Origin: Pontiellaceae bacterium B12219
Lineage (GTDB): Bacteria; Verrucomicrobiota; Kiritimatiellia; Kiritimatiellales; Pontiellaceae
DNA: 39,925 nucleotides
Direction of reading: 5' to 3'
Assembly: GCA_029432795.1 (NCBI GenBank)
Contig: JARNMJ010000041.1
Coordinates: 1 to 39,925 of the forward strand
The translations under genes were made by a program, and so were the position numbers. The notes below the pieces were generated by a model that saw nothing but the letters and a program-made list of their open reading frames with translations, was not told where the DNA came from and did no database searches. Shown one piece after another: positions 13,397-20,959 of this stretch. The first letter of the stretch is position 1, and each line of letters begins with the position of its first letter.

Positions 13397-14356
13397 TCAG
13401 CTCTGCAACTCCAGCTCGGGGCGGCATAATTCATAGAAATTACACTGCCCGCAACTGGCCGGATCCAAGGCCAATTCCCACTCTTCCTTCGGAAGCGGCT
13501 GATTTCTTTCGCGATCATGATCCTCCAGATATTCGGTCATCTCGCCGACGGAATCGCTCATACGCAGCTTTGTTTCGTTGAGCTCCTCTTCCGAAATCTG
13601 GAACGGCAGCACCTGGCCTTCATTGAGATATTCCACGTAGAGAAAAATGTTATCAAGCGTCGCGCCGTATTTGACGATGGCCCAAAGCGCATAGAGTGAC
13701 AGCTGCATTCGATGCTGATCGGCCTTTATTTTTCCGGCCTTCCAGTCGTGAATATGCACTTCATCGCCGATTTTGTAGGCATAGTCCGGAATGGAATAAA
13801 TCTTCACGCCCTCATAAATGAAGTGCTCCACATCGCCCCCCAGATCCGGGGTTGCGATTTTAAATTCCTGGGCGGGCAGAATGTTTCCAACCCTTGGAAG
13901 CACCTTCTCGATAAAGTTCTGAATGCAGGTTTGAATCTGAGCCGCCAGCTGACGCTTGGCTTCTTTTTCTTCCTCGCCGCCAAGCGTTTTATAGTAGTGC
14001 CCGCGCAGGCAGCAGAACTGCTTCGGTGCCGAACGCCAGTTTCCTTCGAGCGATTCATTCCATTTTTTGGTCATGAACGGCCGGGCAATGGTTTTCCAGG
14101 CATCGTCGGCCGAAACCGTCTTACCCTGCTGATGCTGCCGGAGCACCCACATGATGGCATTTTCCGCCGCCTGCCCCATCAGGCCCCAGCGGTTATCCAT
14201 CTTATTCAGCCGATACGCGGTTTTCTGCTCTTCGCTTGCATTACGCGCCCAACCGCCCCACATGCCATATTTGCTCCAATAGCGCCGGCGGCGGCATTGC
14301 TCAAAATCTTCCGCCGCACTGAACGACCACGAAAAGGTATTTTTTAACTGTCCCAC
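13397..14356 (-). CDS. PD-(D/E)XK nuclease with Fe-S-type cysteines
   Basis: The product (319 aa from the GTG) matches the RecB/Cas4-like PD-(D/E)XK nuclease group. The core is YSIPDYAYKIGDEVHIHDWKAGK, where Asp and the D-x-K pair bind metal, followed by the QLSLYALW helix. One Cys near the N-terminus (FEQCRRRRYW) and a C-terminal cluster (CGQCNFYELC) fit the four-Cys [4Fe-4S] staple of AddB/Cas4 nucleases. I chose GTG at 14356 because GGAGG sits six bases upstream; an ATG at 14380 lacks one. It overlaps the transferase gene by 13 bp. No CRISPR or helicase neighbour is present, so a role in DNA repair or as a stand-alone nuclease is open. Confidence 0.78.
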   Translation of the reverse strand: MGQLKNTFSWSFSAAEDFEQCRRRRYWSKYGMWGGWARNASEEQKTAYRLNKMDNRWGLMGQAAENAIMWVLRQHQQGKTVSADDAWKTIARPFMTKKWNESLEGNWRSAPKQFCCLRGHYYKTLGGEEEKEAKRQLAAQIQTCIQNFIEKVLPRVGNILPAQEFKIATPDLGGDVEHFIYEGVKIYSIPDYAYKIGDEVHIHDWKAGKIKADQHRMQLSLYALWAIVKYGATLDNIFLYVEYLNEGQVLPFQISEEELNETKLRMSDSVGEMTEYLEDHDRERNQPLPKEEWELALDPASCGQCNFYELCRPELELQS

Positions 14357-15108
14357 TGCATTCCTCCAAAATCGAAACATGGCATAGATTCAACGGCTTT
14401 GTCAGTAACGACGGCGGCTGCGTATTTCGACCCCGCTTCCAGACGTTGGAAAAACCAGCCGTCTTTCTCGACATCATCCGTCGGCACCGCAAACGAGGTC
14501 AGCTCGCGAAACAGGACCGAACCGCACGCTTTAATATACGCCTCTTTGCGCGCCCACAGATTGAAAAAGGCCGCGTGCGGATCATCGGCACGCCGAATCA
14601 CCTCAATTTCCTCCTCCGCAAAATAGCGCTCCGCAATGGCCAGCACATCGGTTGCCCGGTTCAGCTGCTCAATGTCCACCCCCACCTGCCGACCGCGCCC
14701 GAATGCCAGCACCACCCAGTCGCCGGAATGGGAGATGTTGAAAGAGATTGTGCCGCAGGCATCCTGCCTGCCCCGTTCCTTCTGAGGCCGGCCGGACGCG
14801 AAGCGAGGCGTAAGCCAACCCGGCGATACCAGAAAGGGCTTGCCGTTTTCCGAATACCCGAACACCAATTCAGCGGCAGAAAGTCCGGTATAGCCCGCGA
14901 GCAGCAAACGAAGCGCTCCGCGCGCAACAATTGAACAGGCCCGGTCGGCCTCGCGCCGAAACCGGTCCGCTTTGGCAAGTTCGTCACTGTTCAAAACGGC
15001 CGACAGCGCATCCAACCGAACCCGCATCTCCGGGACATTTGCCCCCCAGATATGAACGGCGTCCGTTCCAAGCATTGGAAGTTTTCTGATGTGCTCAACA
15101 GTTTCCAT
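14344..15108 (-). CDS. 4'-phosphopantetheinyl transferase, Sfp type, with in-frame insertion
   Basis: The 254-aa enzyme transfers phosphopantetheine from CoA to a carrier-protein serine. The family motifs are ISFNISHSGDWVVLAF (residues 121-136), VGVDIE with Asp145 and Glu147, and WARKEAYIKACG with Glu189. Between GKPFLVS and ISFNISHS, where related enzymes usually have a few residues, there are about 24 extra ones (96-119; Arg-, Gly- and Pro-rich). Their DNA contains a 17-bp palindrome of a repeat family also found intergenically. The insertion keeps the frame, so the enzyme may still work. No polyketide or peptide synthetase gene is near. TTCCA-N5-TGGAA palindromes lie at 14437 and 15066. 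Confidence 0.85.
   Translation of the reverse strand: METVEHIRKLPMLGTDAVHIWGANVPEMRVRLDALSAVLNSDELAKADRFRREADRACSIVARGALRLLLAGYTGLSAAELVFGYSENGKPFLVSPGWLTPRFASGRPQKERGRQDACGTISFNISHSGDWVVLAFGRGRQVGVDIEQLNRATDVLAIAERYFAEEEIEVIRRADDPHAAFFNLWARKEAYIKACGSVLFRELTSFAVPTDDVEKDGWFFQRLEAGSKYAAAVVTDKAVESMPCFDFGGMQWDS
14755..14771. repeat. GCAGGC...GCCTGC palindrome inside a gene
   Basis: GCAGGCATCCTGCCTGC lies within the extra segment of the transferase gene and encodes GRQDAC on the minus strand. It has the same pattern as the intergenic palindrome at 8172-8188. Confidence 0.7.
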
Positions 15109-15206: not shown

Positions 15207-15240
15207 TATCGATTGACTTATATCGATTGATAATTATCCT
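15207..15240 (+). promoter_or_regulatory. Promoter and repeated motif ahead of the hydrogenase cluster
   Basis: TTGACT (15213-15218) and TATCCT (15235-15240) are 16 nt apart and read as a sigma70-type promoter 29 nt ahead of the first start codon. Laid over it is TATCGATTGAC-N2-ATATCGA, with ATCGAT-N8-ATCGAT symmetry. The same motif recurs just ahead of rex (20254). A repressor, probably Rex, binding here would block the promoter. Confidence 0.5.
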
Positions 15241-15268
15241 TTATTTCTCTGTTTCCGAGGAATCAACG

Positions 15269-15526
15269 ATGAAAAATTCAATTGTCATTTGCATGGGAAG
15301 CTCGTGTTTTGCACGCGGCAACCGCGAGCATTTAGAGCTGATCGAAAACTATCTGGCCGGCAACCGCCTTACCGCAGACCTTCAATTCTCCGGTTGCCGC
15401 TGCCGCGGAGAATGCGGCCGCGGACCGAATCTCGAAATTAACGGCATTCTGCACCATGAAGTTGACACCGGCACCCTGTTCGATCTGCTGGAGCATTATT
15501 TTACCAGCGTGACGATTGACACGTGA
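15269..15526 (+). CDS. Thioredoxin-like [2Fe-2S] ferredoxin (NuoE/HydC-like), first copy
   Basis: The 85-aa protein is a stand-alone thioredoxin-fold [2Fe-2S] ferredoxin of the NuoE C-terminal type. Cys8 and Cys13 (CMGSSC) pair with the later GCRCRGECGRGPN cluster in the family's C-x4-C...C-x3-C layout, with one extra Cys. It probably carries electrons between the hydrogenase-like proteins and an unknown donor or acceptor. The start at 15269 has GAGGAA upstream. It leads the cluster, separated by 78 bp from hydS; that spacer holds a 12-bp perfect inverted repeat (15508-15519 with 15573-15584). Confidence 0.8.
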   Translation: MKNSIVICMGSSCFARGNREHLELIENYLAGNRLTADLQFSGCRCRGECGRGPNLEINGILHHEVDTGTLFDLLEHYFTSVTIDT

Positions 15527-15604
15527 GCCGTGAATCATCCGAAAACCACAGGACAAGAATAAGAATCACGACTCAATCGTCACGGGTCACGAAACGGAGT
15601 TCCC

Positions 15605-17311
15605 ATGGACCGAAAACACCCCATCTACACCGAAAAAACGGATTGTCGCGACTGTTATAAATGCGTGCGGGAATGTCCGGTTAAAGCCATTAAAATCGAG
15701 GACAGCCGGGCCACCGTGATTGCCGACCGCTGCATTGCCTGCGGGATCTGCGTGCATACCTGCCCGGCCGGCGCCAAAAAGGTCCGCAACGATCTGCCCC
15801 GAGCCAAAAGCCTGCTGGCCCGAAACCCGAATGTGATTGCCTCGCTCGCCCCCTCCTTTGTGAGTGAATGGCCGGAACTTGATCCACGCGCCTTGGCAGG
15901 AGCCATTCGACAGCTCGGTTTTCATGCTGTCAGCGAAACCGCACTGGGCGCGGAAGCCGTTACTCATTCCCTTTCGGAAAGCCTGCGTTATGCGCGCCCC
16001 GGTCTCCACATTTCCACGGCCTGCCCGGTTGTGGTGGATCAGATTCGAAAATACCACCCCGAGTTCACGGCAAACCTGACGCCGATGCTCAGCCCGATGC
16101 AGACCCATGCACAACTCCTGAAGCAACACTACGGCGATGATATCGCCATTGTATTTATCGGCCCGTGCATTGCCAAAAAATGCGAATGCGATGAACTCCC
16201 CGGCTACACCGATATCGCCCTCACCTTCCGCGATCTTTCCCAATGGCTGGAAGATGAGCAGATCAATCCCGCGCAGGCAACTCCCAGCGATTTCGAACCG
16301 AAAGATGCCGCCCACGGCGCACTTTACCCCATGGTCGGCGGCATGAACCGAACCCTGAACGATTACGGACTGCCCCATCTGGAGCTCATTTCCGTGAGCG
16401 GTTTCGAAGCCCTTTCCCAAACTTTGGAAAATCTGGATCCCGCCACGCTGACTGAGCCCGTTTTTCTCGAAGCCCTCGCCTGTCCCGGCGGCTGCATCGG
16501 CGGGCCGCAAACCAATGGCCGGAAGCCGATTCTCAAAGGCGAACTGGCCATCCGCAAACAGATGCGAACCCGCACACCGGCATCGCACCCGGCAACAGCC
16601 GTTTCGCATACCTTCTCGCCCATGCCGAAAAAACACCTCCCACATACCGAAGAACAACTTCGCTCCGCACTTCAACGTGTCGGCAAAGAAAAAGCGGAGG
16701 ATGAACTCAACTGCGGAGGATGCGGCTACGAAACCTGCCGCAATTTTGCAGAAGCCCTGCTGATTGGAAATGCTGAGCCCGATATGTGCCTTTCCCACCT
16801 TCGGAAACTGGTTCAGAAAAAAGCCAATGCGCTGCTGCGCTGCATGCCTTCGGGTGTGGTGATTGTGGATGAGGCATTACGCGTCATTGAGTGCAACGAA
16901 AATTTTGCGCGTACCGCCGGCCCCGATACATTGCTCGGCTATGTGGCCAAACCGGGACTTGCCGGTGCGGATCTGCGTAAAATACTCTCCTTTGCAAAGC
17001 TGTTCGAACACGTGAACCAAACCGGAAACGAATACCGCTGCGAAGCCCTGCGGGATGGCGACCGCCTGCTCAACGTTACAATTTTCCCGATCGAAAGCGG
17101 CAAGACGGTCGGCGGAATTATTCTCGACGTTACCCAAACGGAGATCCGGCGCGAAATGATTGCGCAGAAAGCGCGCGAGGTGATTGAAAAGAATATGATC
17201 ACCGTGCAGGACATTGCCTGCAAACTGGGCGAACACATGGCCGACACCGAAATCCTCCTGCGTTCCATCGCCGAGAATTATGCAGACACCTCTGCGGAAA
17301 AAATCAAATGA
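15605..17311 (+). CDS. HydS-type sensory [FeFe]-hydrogenase with Fe-S and PAS domains
   Basis: The 568-aa protein has two 4Fe-4S motifs (CRDCYKCVRECP, CIACGICVHTCP; residues 14-56), then an H-cluster domain (80-345). The three H-cluster loops read TACP (about 139-142), GPCIAKK (about 187-193) and LACPGGCIGGP (about 290-300). A further four-Cys Fe-S domain (CGGCGYETC, about 368-395) precedes a PAS domain (about 405-510) and a short helical tail. In the first loop catalytic enzymes have TSCCP; here the proton-relay Cys is Ala, as in group C sensory enzymes such as Thermotoga maritima HydS. It is therefore likely to sense H2 or redox state and signal through the PAS domain to the phosphatase encoded next (ATGA overlap). 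Confidence 0.85.
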   Translation: MDRKHPIYTEKTDCRDCYKCVRECPVKAIKIEDSRATVIADRCIACGICVHTCPAGAKKVRNDLPRAKSLLARNPNVIASLAPSFVSEWPELDPRALAGAIRQLGFHAVSETALGAEAVTHSLSESLRYARPGLHISTACPVVVDQIRKYHPEFTANLTPMLSPMQTHAQLLKQHYGDDIAIVFIGPCIAKKCECDELPGYTDIALTFRDLSQWLEDEQINPAQATPSDFEPKDAAHGALYPMVGGMNRTLNDYGLPHLELISVSGFEALSQTLENLDPATLTEPVFLEALACPGGCIGGPQTNGRKPILKGELAIRKQMRTRTPASHPATAVSHTFSPMPKKHLPHTEEQLRSALQRVGKEKAEDELNCGGCGYETCRNFAEALLIGNAEPDMCLSHLRKLVQKKANALLRCMPSGVVIVDEALRVIECNENFARTAGPDTLLGYVAKPGLAGADLRKILSFAKLFEHVNQTGNEYRCEALRDGDRLLNVTIFPIESGKTVGGIILDVTQTEIRREMIAQKAREVIEKNMITVQDIACKLGEHMADTEILLRSIAENYADTSAEKIK

Positions 17312-18540
17312 GCCATGCAGGAAACAGCCGAACCCCCGAGCTGCCGAGTCGCGGAGCTTCTGAAAAAAAACAGCTCTTTAAGGAACTGGAATTCCATCAG
17401 GTGCGCAAGGCTTCCGAGCATACCGCCGGCGATGCATACATGGTACAGAAAGATGCTGAAAACAACCGATTGCTGGCCGTTCTTTCCGACGGTCTGGGCA
17501 GCGGCGTTAAAGCGAATATTCTGGCAAATATGACTGCGCGCATGGCGATCCGGTTTGCGGAAACCGATACCGATTTTGTGCATTATGCCAAAGTCATCAT
17601 GAATGCCCTGCCGGTGTGTCAGGTGCGAAGAATTGCCTATTCCACATTCACCGTTGTCGACTGCCGTCCGGACGGAAGCGTCCAGATTGTGGAGCAGGAC
17701 AACCCGCCCTTTATTCTGCTGCGCAACGGCGAACCGGCGGAAATTCCGTTTCAGGAATACAGCAGCGAACAGGGTGACTATCGTAAACTCCGGGTCTATC
17801 GGTTTGTGGCCGAACCCGAAGACCGGATTATTTTTTTCAGCGATGGCGTCACCGAAGCCGGCATGGGCTCTGCCCCCTATCCGCTGGGCTGGCGAACCCA
17901 GGGGTGCTCCGCGTTCGTCCGCGGCATGGTGGCAGACAACCCTGAAATTTCAGCACGTATTCTGGCCGAGCAGGTCGTTCGGGCAGCCCTGCAGAAAGAG
18001 CCCGATCGTAAAGCCCACGATGATATCAGCTGCGGCGTCCTGTACTTCCGCACCCCGCGTCAAACACTGCTGGCATCCGGCCCGCCCTTTTCTGAAAAAA
18101 AGGACCGGGAATACGCCGACATCATCCGGTCTTTTCCGGGAACAAAAATCATTAGCGGCGGAACCTCTGCTGATATTGTTGCTCGGGAACTGAACCTTGA
18201 AATCACAACGGATCTCTTCCGTTTCCGGCGTTCAAACCTTCCGCCGATTTCGAAAATGGAAGGCATGGACCTGGTGACGGAAGGTATTCTTACACTCACC
18301 GAAGTGCTGAATCTGCTGCAGGGAAAAAATCCACCGATTCAACCGAATGCCGCCACTCTGCTGAAAGATCAGCTGATTAATTCCGACGAGATCCATATTC
18401 TCGTCGGCACCAAAATCAATCAGGCCCATCAGGATCCGAATCTTCCGATGGAACTCGAAATACGGCGCAGTCTGATGCGTCGCATCGCAACAACGCTTCA
18501 AGAAGATTATTTCAAGGAAGTCCGGCTGGAGTTCATATGA
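17308..18540 (+). CDS. SpoIIE/PP2C-type serine phosphatase of the hydrogenase cluster
   Basis: The 410-aa protein carries a SpoIIE-like PP2C domain in about its first 250 residues. Metal-binding aspartates appear in VLSDGLGSG, IIFFSDGVTEAG and AHDDIS. The remaining 150 residues (from about SEKKDREYADIIRSFPG) form a separate domain unknown to me, beginning with GTKIISGGTSADIVAREL. The start overlaps the hydS stop as ATGA, and the next gene starts the same way, so translation is coupled. The natural reading is an output enzyme that dephosphorylates a protein when HydS senses H2 or a redox change. No target or kinase is encoded nearby. Confidence 0.82.
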   Translation: MSHAGNSRTPELPSRGASEKKQLFKELEFHQVRKASEHTAGDAYMVQKDAENNRLLAVLSDGLGSGVKANILANMTARMAIRFAETDTDFVHYAKVIMNALPVCQVRRIAYSTFTVVDCRPDGSVQIVEQDNPPFILLRNGEPAEIPFQEYSSEQGDYRKLRVYRFVAEPEDRIIFFSDGVTEAGMGSAPYPLGWRTQGCSAFVRGMVADNPEISARILAEQVVRAALQKEPDRKAHDDISCGVLYFRTPRQTLLASGPPFSEKKDREYADIIRSFPGTKIISGGTSADIVARELNLEITTDLFRFRRSNLPPISKMEGMDLVTEGILTLTEVLNLLQGKNPPIQPNAATLLKDQLINSDEIHILVGTKINQAHQDPNLPMELEIRRSLMRRIATTLQEDYFKEVRLEFI

Positions 18541-18806
18541 AAAAAGTCACCGTATCGATTTGTACCGGCACCACCTGCTATCTGATGGGTGGTGCACATC
18601 TTTTAACCATCAACGAAAGACTCGATCCATCCACCCTGGATTCCGTGGAATTCAAAGGCGCTCATTGCCTGGGACTCTGCAGCAACGAATCCAATGGGAA
18701 ACCACCGTTTGTCAAAGTAAACGAACATTTGGTTTCCGATGCCACCCTCAACAAGGTGCTCGATGCGATCCGGAAAGAACTAAAGGAAATCCAACATGTT
18801 TCATGA
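18537..18806 (+). CDS. Thioredoxin-like [2Fe-2S] ferredoxin, second copy
   Basis: The 89-aa protein is the same NuoE-like [2Fe-2S] thioredoxin fold as the first gene of the cluster. CTGTTC supplies the first Cys pair and HCLGLC the second, with C-x4-C...C-x3-C spacing. It overlaps the phosphatase gene by four bases and the hydrogenase gene by eleven. It likely passes electrons to or from the hydrogenase that follows. Confidence 0.8.
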   Translation: MKKVTVSICTGTTCYLMGGAHLLTINERLDPSTLDSVEFKGAHCLGLCSNESNGKPPFVKVNEHLVSDATLNKVLDAIRKELKEIQHVS

Positions 18807-20358
18807 CAATAAAGCAGTCCGGCTTCGTAAAGAAGTTCTGGCACGCGTTGCACGCGCATTTTTCACCGCACAACCTGATGACACGCTGAACCGCATCCCG
18901 CTGACTATGCGCCCGAAAGGAGCCAAAGATTCATCGCGCTGCTGTATTTATAAAGACCGCGTGGTCCTCAAATACCGCAGTATGGCCGCACTCGGTTTCA
19001 GCGTTGAAAGCGAAACCGACGAACTCAAACCGGTGAGTGCCTATTTTGCCGAAGCCCTTCAACGCAAAACGCCAACACTCCCTGTTTTAACGGTTATCGA
19101 CGAAGCCTGCAGTGCCTGCGTCACCACCTGTTACACCGCAACCAATGCCTGCAAAGGCTGCCTCGCCCGCTCCTGCGAAAGCGTCTGCCCGAAAGATGCC
19201 ATTGAATTCCGCAACGGCAAGGCCTGGCTTAATCCGGACCAATGCGTGAACTGCGGGCTCTGTATGAAGGCCTGCCCCTATCACGCCATTATCCGCATCC
19301 CCATTCCGTGCGAAGAAGCCTGCCCCGTCGGAGCCATCACCAAAGATCCGGAAACCGGCCGCGAAACCATTGACCACACCAAATGCACTTATTGCGGAAA
19401 ATGCCTCACAGAATGTCCGTTTGCCGCCATTTCCGATCTTTCACAAATGGTCGATGTCCTTCAGCGGCTCCAAGAAGGAAATGCCGTTGCCATGATTGCG
19501 CCTTCAATTATCGGCCAGCTTCCCGGCACATTGCCCCAGCTGATATCGGCACTCGAAACACTTGGCTTTTCCAGTGTAATCGAAGTGGCGGAAGGAGCCG
19601 AAGAAACAACCCTGCATGAAAGTGCGGAATGGGCGGAAAAAATAAGCGAAGGTGAACGGTTCATCACCACCTCCTGCTGCCCGGCTTATATCGAGACCGT
19701 GGAAAAACATCTGCCGGAAATGCGTCCTTTTGTTTCTGACACCCCCACACCGATGGCCTACACCGCTTCCAAAGTTCGGAAAATTGCCCCTGAAGCTGTC
19801 ACCGTTTTCATCGGTCCGTGTATTGCCAAGCGGGTGGAAGCCGCCAAAAATCCGGATGTGGACTATGTGCTGACCTTCGAAGAACTCGGCGCCATGTTGG
19901 TGGGAGCGGACATCGATGTTTTCGAATGCCGGGAAGCTATGGACCGTCCAACGCCTTCCCGCGAAGGCCGCGGCTTTGCCGCCAGCAGCGGCGTAACCCA
20001 TGCCGTCAAAGCAGTCGCTCCGGGTAATGCCGCTCTGGAACCCCTGCTCGTGAACGGACTGGATACCAAAACAATCCGGCAGATGAGTCTTTGGGCCACA
20101 AAATCGTGCCCGGGAAATTTTGTGGAAGTCATGTCCTGTGAAGGCGGATGCATTTCCGGCCCCGGATCAATGGGCAATCCCCGGCTGGTCAAAAAACAAC
20201 TCGATGAGCTGCTCAAAAACAGCCCGCCATTGCGCTCAAAACCAATATCTACGTATCGATTGACGAATATCGACCTAAACGGTACGGTTTCGCGAATTAC
20301 TGGAGAATTTTTTAATGAGTCAACTGGAACGCAAAACAGCAGGAGTACCGACGCTTAA
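18796..20358 (+). CDS. [FeFe]-hydrogenase, ferredoxin-domain type
   Basis: The 520-aa protein has an N-terminal region of about 100 residues without a named domain. A cysteine-rich ferredoxin section follows (CSACVTTCYTATNACKGC; CVNCGLCMKACP; CTYCGKCLTECP; residues 105-212), then the H-cluster domain. The loops are TTSCCPAY (Cys294 proton relay, Cys295 cluster ligand), GPCIAKRVE (about 338) and EVMSCEGGCISGPG (about 446-459), so the catalytic set is complete, unlike HydS upstream. The third loop has GP rather than the GGGQP of group A enzymes, which suggests a group B-like type. H2 evolution or uptake with ferredoxin is the expected reaction. AAGGAA precedes the ATG. No hydEFG maturase genes lie in the window. 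Confidence 0.88.
   Translation: MFHDNKAVRLRKEVLARVARAFFTAQPDDTLNRIPLTMRPKGAKDSSRCCIYKDRVVLKYRSMAALGFSVESETDELKPVSAYFAEALQRKTPTLPVLTVIDEACSACVTTCYTATNACKGCLARSCESVCPKDAIEFRNGKAWLNPDQCVNCGLCMKACPYHAIIRIPIPCEEACPVGAITKDPETGRETIDHTKCTYCGKCLTECPFAAISDLSQMVDVLQRLQEGNAVAMIAPSIIGQLPGTLPQLISALETLGFSSVIEVAEGAEETTLHESAEWAEKISEGERFITTSCCPAYIETVEKHLPEMRPFVSDTPTPMAYTASKVRKIAPEAVTVFIGPCIAKRVEAAKNPDVDYVLTFEELGAMLVGADIDVFECREAMDRPTPSREGRGFAASSGVTHAVKAVAPGNAALEPLLVNGLDTKTIRQMSLWATKSCPGNFVEVMSCEGGCISGPGSMGNPRLVKKQLDELLKNSPPLRSKPISTYRLTNIDLNGTVSRITGEFFNESTGTQNSRSTDA
20254..20288 (+). promoter_or_regulatory. Second copy of the TATCGATTGAC motif, ahead of rex
   Basis: TATCGATTGAC-N2-ATATCGA lies in the last codons of the hydrogenase gene, about 40-60 bp ahead of the rex start. 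It matches 15207-15226 in 18 of 20 positions. TTGACG (20260-20265) could be a -35 box with a weak TACGGT -10 at 20283-20288. This fits an internal promoter under autoregulation. Confidence 0.45.
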
Positions 20359-20959
20359 GCGGTTGCCCCTCTATTTAAGGCTGTTGCGAAAGATGAAAGA
20401 AAACGGCGAGGAATATGCCTCGGGTACCGTTGTCGCCAAAGAACTCGGTCTTGACCCCATTGTGGTCCGCAAAGATTTAGCCATCACCGGCGCAGTCGGC
20501 CGCCCCCGGCTGGGTTTTCCGATGGATGAAATTATTCTGGCGATCGAGGAATTCCTTGGCTGGTCCAATACATCGGATGCCATTCTGGTTGGCGTCGGAA
20601 GTCTCGGGCGCGCCCTGCTCGGATATCAGGGATTTGAGCAGCACGGCATGCGCATTTGCGCGGCCTTCGACAGCAACCCCGACATCATCGGAACGGAAGT
20701 CCACGGAAAAACCATTCTCGACATCAATAAGATGCCGGAGCTGGCCAAACGCATGCATGTGCAGATTGGTATCCTGACGGTTACCGCATCCGTCGCCCAG
20801 GGCGTTGCCAACTCCATGATTGAAGGCGGAATCCGGGCGATCTGGAACTTCACGCCAACCAGCCTCGACGTACCGAAACACGTCATTCTGCAACGCGAAG
20901 AACTCGCATCCAGTCTGGCCGTGCTCTCCCACCGTCTGTTGGTGGAAGGCAGCCGCTAA
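20315..20959 (+). CDS. rex: Redox-sensing transcriptional repressor Rex
   Basis: The 214-aa protein has an N-terminal winged helix (SGTVVAKELGLDPIVVRKDL) and a Rossmann domain starting LVGVGSLGRALLGY, the NAD(H) site. Rex releases its operators when NADH/NAD+ rises and commonly controls hydrogenases, bd oxidase and fermentation genes. Length and domain order are normal. After VRKDL the sequence reads AITGAVGRPRLGF instead of the common SYFGxFGKRGVGY, so its operator may differ from TTGTGA-type sites. The start overlaps the hydrogenase 3' end by 44 bp, with GGAG upstream. Cluster membership and the shared motif point to control of the hydrogenase genes and itself. Confidence 0.9.
   Translation: MSQLERKTAGVPTLKRLPLYLRLLRKMKENGEEYASGTVVAKELGLDPIVVRKDLAITGAVGRPRLGFPMDEIILAIEEFLGWSNTSDAILVGVGSLGRALLGYQGFEQHGMRICAAFDSNPDIIGTEVHGKTILDINKMPELAKRMHVQIGILTVTASVAQGVANSMIEGGIRAIWNFTPTSLDVPKHVILQREELASSLAVLSHRLLVEGSR

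Follow-up and report, generated by a model that had tools for sequence, protein, structure and literature searches.

Sensory [FeFe]-hydrogenases with an adjacent phosphatase gene are known as group C3 of HydDB and, in Thermoanaerobacterium, from the hfsABCD operon, and their presumed role is the sensing of hydrogen and the tuning of fermentation. HydDB describes group C3 by an H-cluster domain, Fe-S clusters, a PAS domain and an adjacent Ser/Thr phosphatase gene, names no C-terminal domain of the phosphatase and lists the role of the group as undetermined (PMC5037454). The hfsABCD operon encodes HfsA, the PAS hydrogenase HfsB, the serine phosphatase HfsC and the hydrogenase HfsD (PMC5707799, PMC11837493). 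A marine-type anaerobe version of this known kind of cluster is present in Pontiellaceae bacterium B12219, on contig JARNMJ010000041.1 (GenBank assembly GCA_029432795.1; the 39,925 nucleotides from position 1 of the forward strand are called the window here). Its six genes, fdxA, hydS, PP (the phosphatase), fdxB, hydA and rex, lie on the + strand at 15269–20959. With fair confidence, we read them as a Kiritimatiellales hfs-type operon under two layers of control, Rex and HydS-PP, that balances the electrons of fermentation. New here are an undescribed domain of PP, the reading of HydS-PP as a split phosphatase and a candidate operator before fdxA and rex.

Deleting hfsA or hfsB in T. saccharolyticum increased ethanol and adhE expression, the high ethanol of hfs mutants depended on hfsC and hfsD, and deletion of hfsB gave higher hydrogenase activity (PMC5707799). 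Upstream of hfsABCD and adhE in that species, a Rex box has been predicted (PMC5886521). In R. albus, a cluster of eight genes, among them adhE and a group C hydrogenase gene, was 111-fold lower at low H2 (PMC6776011); we take it to be the locus on pRUMAL01 of R. albus 7, whose order is rex-adhE-APH-type kinase-fdx-fdx-hydS-PP-hydA2. A sequence-only reading of the window had stated that related HydS-phosphatase sets occur in anaerobes including Clostridia and that their detailed function is little known, which understates what the hfs genetics has revealed (PMC5707799). Cultured Pontiella species produce acetate, ethanol and H2 (PMC7356697), which fits the proposed fermentation-balancing role.

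Group C3 sensors occur widely among anaerobes, and biofuel bacteria that lose them give altered yields of ethanol and H2. The present locus offers parts that can be studied directly (the conserved tail of HydS, the phosphatase without its own regulatory domain and the undescribed but conserved domain, which can be mutated), and its predicted two-site operator is a simple testable element for the Rex layer.

Gene order and linkage of the cluster

The window genome (4.75 Mb in 273 contigs) was of Pontiellaceae type (Kiritimatiellales), with Pontiellaceae bacterium B12227 and Pontiella sulfatireligans as its best relatives. Family searches (Pfam, NCBIfam) identified all six genes named by the sequence-only reading, on one strand and in the order it gave: fdxA, a thioredoxin-like [2Fe-2S] ferredoxin in the HfsA position (15269–15526; PF01257, 34.4 bits); hydS, a group C-type sensory [FeFe]-hydrogenase (15605–17311; PF02906, PF04060 and Fer4 matches); PP, a SpoIIE/PPM-type phosphatase in the HfsC position (17308–18540; PF07228); fdxB, a second thioredoxin-like [2Fe-2S] ferredoxin (18537–18806; PF01257, 28.8 bits); hydA, a group B monomeric [FeFe]-hydrogenase (18796–20358; TIGR04105, 513.7 bits, cut-off 450); and rex, a cluster-type paralogue of the NAD(H)-responsive repressor (20315–20959; NF003994, 277.5 bits, cut-off 130). 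The genes from hydS to rex overlapped as it had reported (hydS/PP 4 bp, PP/fdxB 4 bp, fdxB/hydA 11 bp and hydA/rex 44 bp). Its cluster start at 15207 was corrected, since this position belongs to the promoter/operator and the first gene starts at 15269. A C-terminal alignment showed HydA to be ~40 residues longer than in genus relatives; hydA lacks the stop used there and continues across the rex promoter region for ~40 residues (20230–20358), which accounts for the 44-bp overlap. A HydF maturase, needed for H-cluster assembly, was encoded elsewhere in the genome (514.6 bits).

The window thus had the hfsABCD-type order of a small Fe-S protein, HydS, phosphatase and hydrogenase, but its operon also held fdxB and rex, and its operator differed. 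Poor alignment with known proteins is reported for HfsA, and fdxA was equated with it by position. Assignment of the window HydS to group C3 was by gene neighbour and not by the HydDB classifier. PP of R. albus 7 was 28% identical to the window PP and kept the motifs of its C-terminal domain, whereas the adhE and APH-type kinase genes of the R. albus 7 cluster were both absent from the window cluster.

PP homologues were gathered across the phylum and beyond, giving 181 PP genes (some loci twice; 170 distinct). This comparison of cluster order, proposed as a check by the sequence-only reading, showed HydS as the gene immediately before PP in 179 of the 181, and the same order was present in R. 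albus 7. The remaining two were one contig edge and L201, the one true exception, where a 2-hydroxyacid dehydrogenase precedes PP instead of HydS. The HydS-PP linkage is therefore not due to chance. A ferredoxin lay upstream of HydS in 157/181 loci, and 8 further loci were at contig edges. Neighbours of this triad varied between a ferredoxin plus a group B hydrogenase and a NuoE/NuoF/HydA trimeric hydrogenase, sometimes divergent, indicating that ferredoxin-HydS-PP is the conserved unit and the adjacent hydrogenase is exchangeable. AdhE-like genes flanked 45 of 169 loci.

Several variants of the cluster were seen among the relatives. Two paralogous ferredoxin-HydS-PP sets face each other at L052:5219-15399, with a group B hydrogenase after one only. 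In L082, L089 and L121 (minus strand, ~400–2400) a HydS-histidine kinase gene in a divergent hydrogenase operon stands beside HydS-PP, so that two output types of H2 sensor lie side by side. In five other loci the cluster came with an APH-type kinase resembling the one of R. albus; such kinases near HydS-PP, candidates for an opposing kinase, were noted at L220, L153, L208, L219, L211 and L225:6076-6822. A viral origin of the cluster was rejected, as no PP relatives were found in the viral collection. The sole domain relative there, contig L287:534-5572, carries a HydS-PP pair of clostridial type next to a large serine recombinase, which may point to a mobile element or to bacterial DNA filed wrongly.

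The predicted HydS sensor and PP phosphatase

HydS comprised two [4Fe-4S] clusters, an H-cluster domain, an FeS domain, a probable PAS domain and C-terminal helices. It matched Fe_hyd_lg_C (E 5e-45) and the FeS family PF04060; its PAS_8 score of 20.0 bits was just under the cut-off of 21.8, and the predicted secondary structure of residues 405–508 fitted a PAS domain. In the HydS model (predicted local distance difference test, pLDDT, 87), residues 1–340 matched CpI (6gm3: Z 39.3, root-mean-square deviation, rmsd, 2.5, 339 aligned) and were followed by the FeS and predicted PAS domains and two C-terminal helices (510–541 and 545–560). The H-cluster cysteines C140, C188, C293 and C297 were all present, as were those of the FeS domain. 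Among the 166 HydS with an H-cluster domain, at least 164 retained these four H-cluster cysteines. Sensory enzymes differ from prototypical ones around the H-cluster (C299, M353 and M497 of CpI), and HydS turns over H2 at a low rate (PMC10055695). At the corresponding positions, equated by motif, the window HydS had the sensory-type residues Ala139, Gly186 and Leu291, found in 144, 158 and 143 of 168 HydS, respectively. Two Bacteroidales HydS (L078:3136-5013 and L082:7119-8969) had Asn or Asp at one H-cluster cysteine, suggesting a possible loss of H2 binding.

The C-terminal helical tail of HydS (residues 510–560, 17132–17284), a proposed phosphatase contact from its predicted helices and conservation, ranked among the best conserved parts of the protein, with V534, Q535, G542, E543, E549 and L552 conserved in at least 90%. 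In L155:4840-5436 and L156:7947-8720, HydS consisted of PAS and tail only, with no Fe-S or H-cluster domain, and still lay between an upstream ferredoxin and a downstream PP. The neighbouring HydS-kinase proteins of Bacteroidales shared HydS columns ~5–415, and a histidine kinase replaced the PAS-tail part. The PAS-tail part thus travels with PP, and we infer that it is the likely contact to the phosphatase.

The SpoIIE family PF07228 covered only residues 52–245 of PP. In its model (pLDDT 86.9), a catalytic domain at residues 22–250 resembled 3pu9 (Z 25.2, rmsd 2.9, 220 aligned), and the metal-site aspartates D42, D61, D179 and D238 were invariant; by predicted fold and these aspartates, PP is a SpoIIE/PPM phosphatase. 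The catalytic domain begins almost at the N terminus, and PP had neither the N-terminal regulatory domain nor the helical linker usual in such phosphatases. RsbU and RsbP phosphatases are driven through an N-terminal linker, as concluded for RsbP from genetics and prediction, and share with HydS-PP a PAS and helix input to a PPM phosphatase (PMC12143880). In HydS-PP, however, the input is on a separate H-cluster protein, PP has an extra C-terminal domain and the operon contains no RsbV/RsbW genes. The PAS domain, linker and PPM domain are not on one chain here but are encoded by two genes with a 4-bp overlap. Because PP lacks a regulatory domain and linker in cis, and because rare HydS consist of PAS and tail only, the simplest reading of these sequences is an RsbP-like phosphatase divided over two chains. 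Open frames of 950 aa in relatives suggested a natural fusion of HydS with PP, which was rejected because the genes are in different frames; an in-frame TGA in some PP genes was likewise rejected, as the genes are open and the stops precede the start.

The C-terminal alpha/beta domain of PP (residues 251–410, 18058–18537) had been called undescribed by the sequence-only reading, at about 150 residues. This proved correct: searches of Pfam, NCBIfam and PDB sequences gave nothing credible for residues ~252–410. MutT, DUF2299 and LpoB were rejected as its identity, their matches being weak and partial, and in structure searches with the whole PP model the matches were taken up by the PP2C domain. 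The domain was folded with high confidence in the model, and the motifs G258-P-P, G284-G-T, P312-P and T324-E-G were invariant from Verrucomicrobiota to Clostridia (R. albus, Monoglobus and Acetoanaerobium records). It was present on 218 of 219 phosphatases and always joined to this phosphatase among the open reading frames of the gathered loci, which were mostly fetched with PP as query.

A candidate operator before fdxA and rex

A candidate operator, ATCGATTGAC-TTAT-ATCGAT, lies before fdxA on the + strand (15208–15227) and is conserved in Pontiellaceae. It contains the -35 hexamer of a promoter-like site at 15213–15240 (-35 TTGACT, 15213–15218; -10 TATCCT, 15235–15240; + strand, 9 of 12 in a consensus scan). 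The scan yielded about as many sites as in shuffled sequences, and support for this promoter comes from conservation: ATCGATTGAC-N4-ATCGAT around the -35 hexamer was invariant in 8 aligned Pontiellaceae promoters. A second candidate, ATCGATTGAC-GAAT-ATCGAC, with one mismatch, was found on the + strand at 20255–20274, inside the hydA extension and 40 bp before the rex ATG. The site at 15208 was the only exact ATCGAT-N8-ATCGAT in the genome, and the pattern ATCGATTGAC-N4-ATCGAY at up to one mismatch had exactly two sites in the 4.75 Mb, 15208 and 20255.

In 209 kb of relatives' loci the pattern had 21 sites, versus none for 40 scrambled patterns; because the loci had been selected for presence of the cluster, in genomes related to one another, the 21 are not independent events. 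Sites preceded fdxA, rex, fdx-rex and a NuoE-like gene, and also occupied the promoter shared with a divergent adhE and the rex–pflB interval; these target genes point to Rex. A site before rex was present in 10 of 11 cluster-bearing genomes versus 1 of 7 with the same Rex type and no cluster. A second Rex, 29% identical to the cluster Rex, is encoded elsewhere in the window genome; for this second paralogue type (~30% identical), no site was found in 12 loci examined.

Proposed two-layer control and competing explanations

Two-layer control, by Rex on transcription and by HydS and the phosphatase on protein phosphorylation, had been suggested by the sequence-only reading. Both layers stand as predictions: the Rex layer gains a cluster-specific operator candidate, and the almost obligate pairing of the two genes, together with hfs genetics, supports the HydS-PP layer. 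The arrangement is plausible and consistent with the literature. In the first layer, the cluster Rex would bind ATCGATTGAC-N4-ATCGAY over the -35 region when NAD+ is high, repressing the operon and its own gene, and NADH would relieve the repression. In the second, HydS, perhaps with FdxA as electron partner, would read H2 or redox state through the H-cluster and Fe-S chain, and its PAS domain and C-terminal helices would act in trans on PP. PP would dephosphorylate a Ser/Thr-phosphorylated regulator, perhaps a STAS protein, with its C-terminal domain setting the partner or ligand. HydS would restrain PP at low H2 and release it at high H2; this direction is probable from hfs genetics, since with such restraint the T. 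saccharolyticum and R. albus data both fit, removal of HydS mimicking high H2. More tentatively, and with clear doubt, HydS-PP may be an H2-responsive two-chain RsbP-like switch in which the GPP-GGT-PP-TEG domain is a new ligand or partner module selecting the PP substrate, with a Kiritimatiellales operator read by a cluster-specific Rex paralogue.

Several results weigh against two-layer control as proposed. The operon contains no kinase or STAS gene. An alcohol dehydrogenase (ADH) of the iron-containing type and of AdhE length was not found in the genome, which means that the ethanol target of Clostridia may not hold here. Rex lay within 4.5 kb of PP in just 34 of 170 loci. Covariation between HydS (PAS/tail) and PP over 168 pairs (effective number of sequences 100) gave top pairs exceeding shuffled pairings, but these resembled clade-specific cliques and the signal is confounded by phylogeny. 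Classical Rex boxes (TTGTGAA/TTGTTAA-N4 inverted-repeat type) were absent near the cluster and were rejected as its operator, and six genomes with a cluster-type Rex and no HydS/PP had no site before rex. Rex operator sequence may vary between clades, so that a non-classical repeat does not exclude Rex.

The unusual sequence and the six siteless genomes mean that another regulator could bind the candidate operator. The HydS-PP layer would then stand, with the ATCGAT operator bound by a non-Rex regulator, possibly PP-controlled, and rex a target of the H2 pathway. The motif, unlike known Rex boxes, does track the HydS/PP cluster in the genomes with this Rex, and rex expression was increased in high-ethanol hfs mutants of T. 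saccharolyticum (PMC5707799). However, Rex is the sole DNA-binding regulator in the cluster, the site-bearing genes (rex, adhE, pflB and hydrogenase) make a typical Rex regulon, and the site is carried by a PP-less genome (G013) and by a cluster-remote fdx-rex pair (G028). We consider a non-Rex regulator rather unlikely.

It is improbable that HydS-PP instead serves the hydrogenase structurally or in electron transfer (electrons passing among FdxA, HydS and HydA), with PP acting post-translationally on the enzyme or ferredoxins. Such a role would suit the low catalytic rate of HydS (PMC10055695), the two ferredoxins of the operon, and, in T. saccharolyticum, both the hydrogenase activity gained on hfsB deletion and the increase of NADH-ADH activity without a matching change for aldehyde dehydrogenase (PMC5707799). 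It fits poorly with the rise of the adhE transcript on hfsA or hfsB deletion (PMC5707799), with a triad that adjoins unrelated hydrogenases, group B or trimeric, and with PAS-only HydS still paired with PP. The reduced HydS of L155/L156 lack the whole H-cluster domain, so PP coupling is not H-cluster-dependent everywhere; together with the substituted cysteine in L078 and L082, they would be expected if HydS sensed general redox state through Fe-S clusters or PAS, its H-cluster domain being vestigial. For the window this is the least probable of these explanations, as its HydS keeps the four H-cluster and the FeS-domain cysteines, and HydF is present.

For the phosphorylation layer of the two-layer reading, genes for stand-alone STAS proteins and for RsbW-type kinases are present outside the operon, one pair of them ~1 kb apart on contig C273; these are no more than candidates for the substrate pathway of PP. 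On the same contig (G000:C273:30023-40056), the second Rex paralogue was ~8 kb from an RsbW-type kinase and a stand-alone STAS gene. Upstream of the cluster, a 4′-phosphopantetheinyl transferase-like gene (14344–15108, judged by eye) was divergent from fdxA, as it was in L038, L039 and L252.

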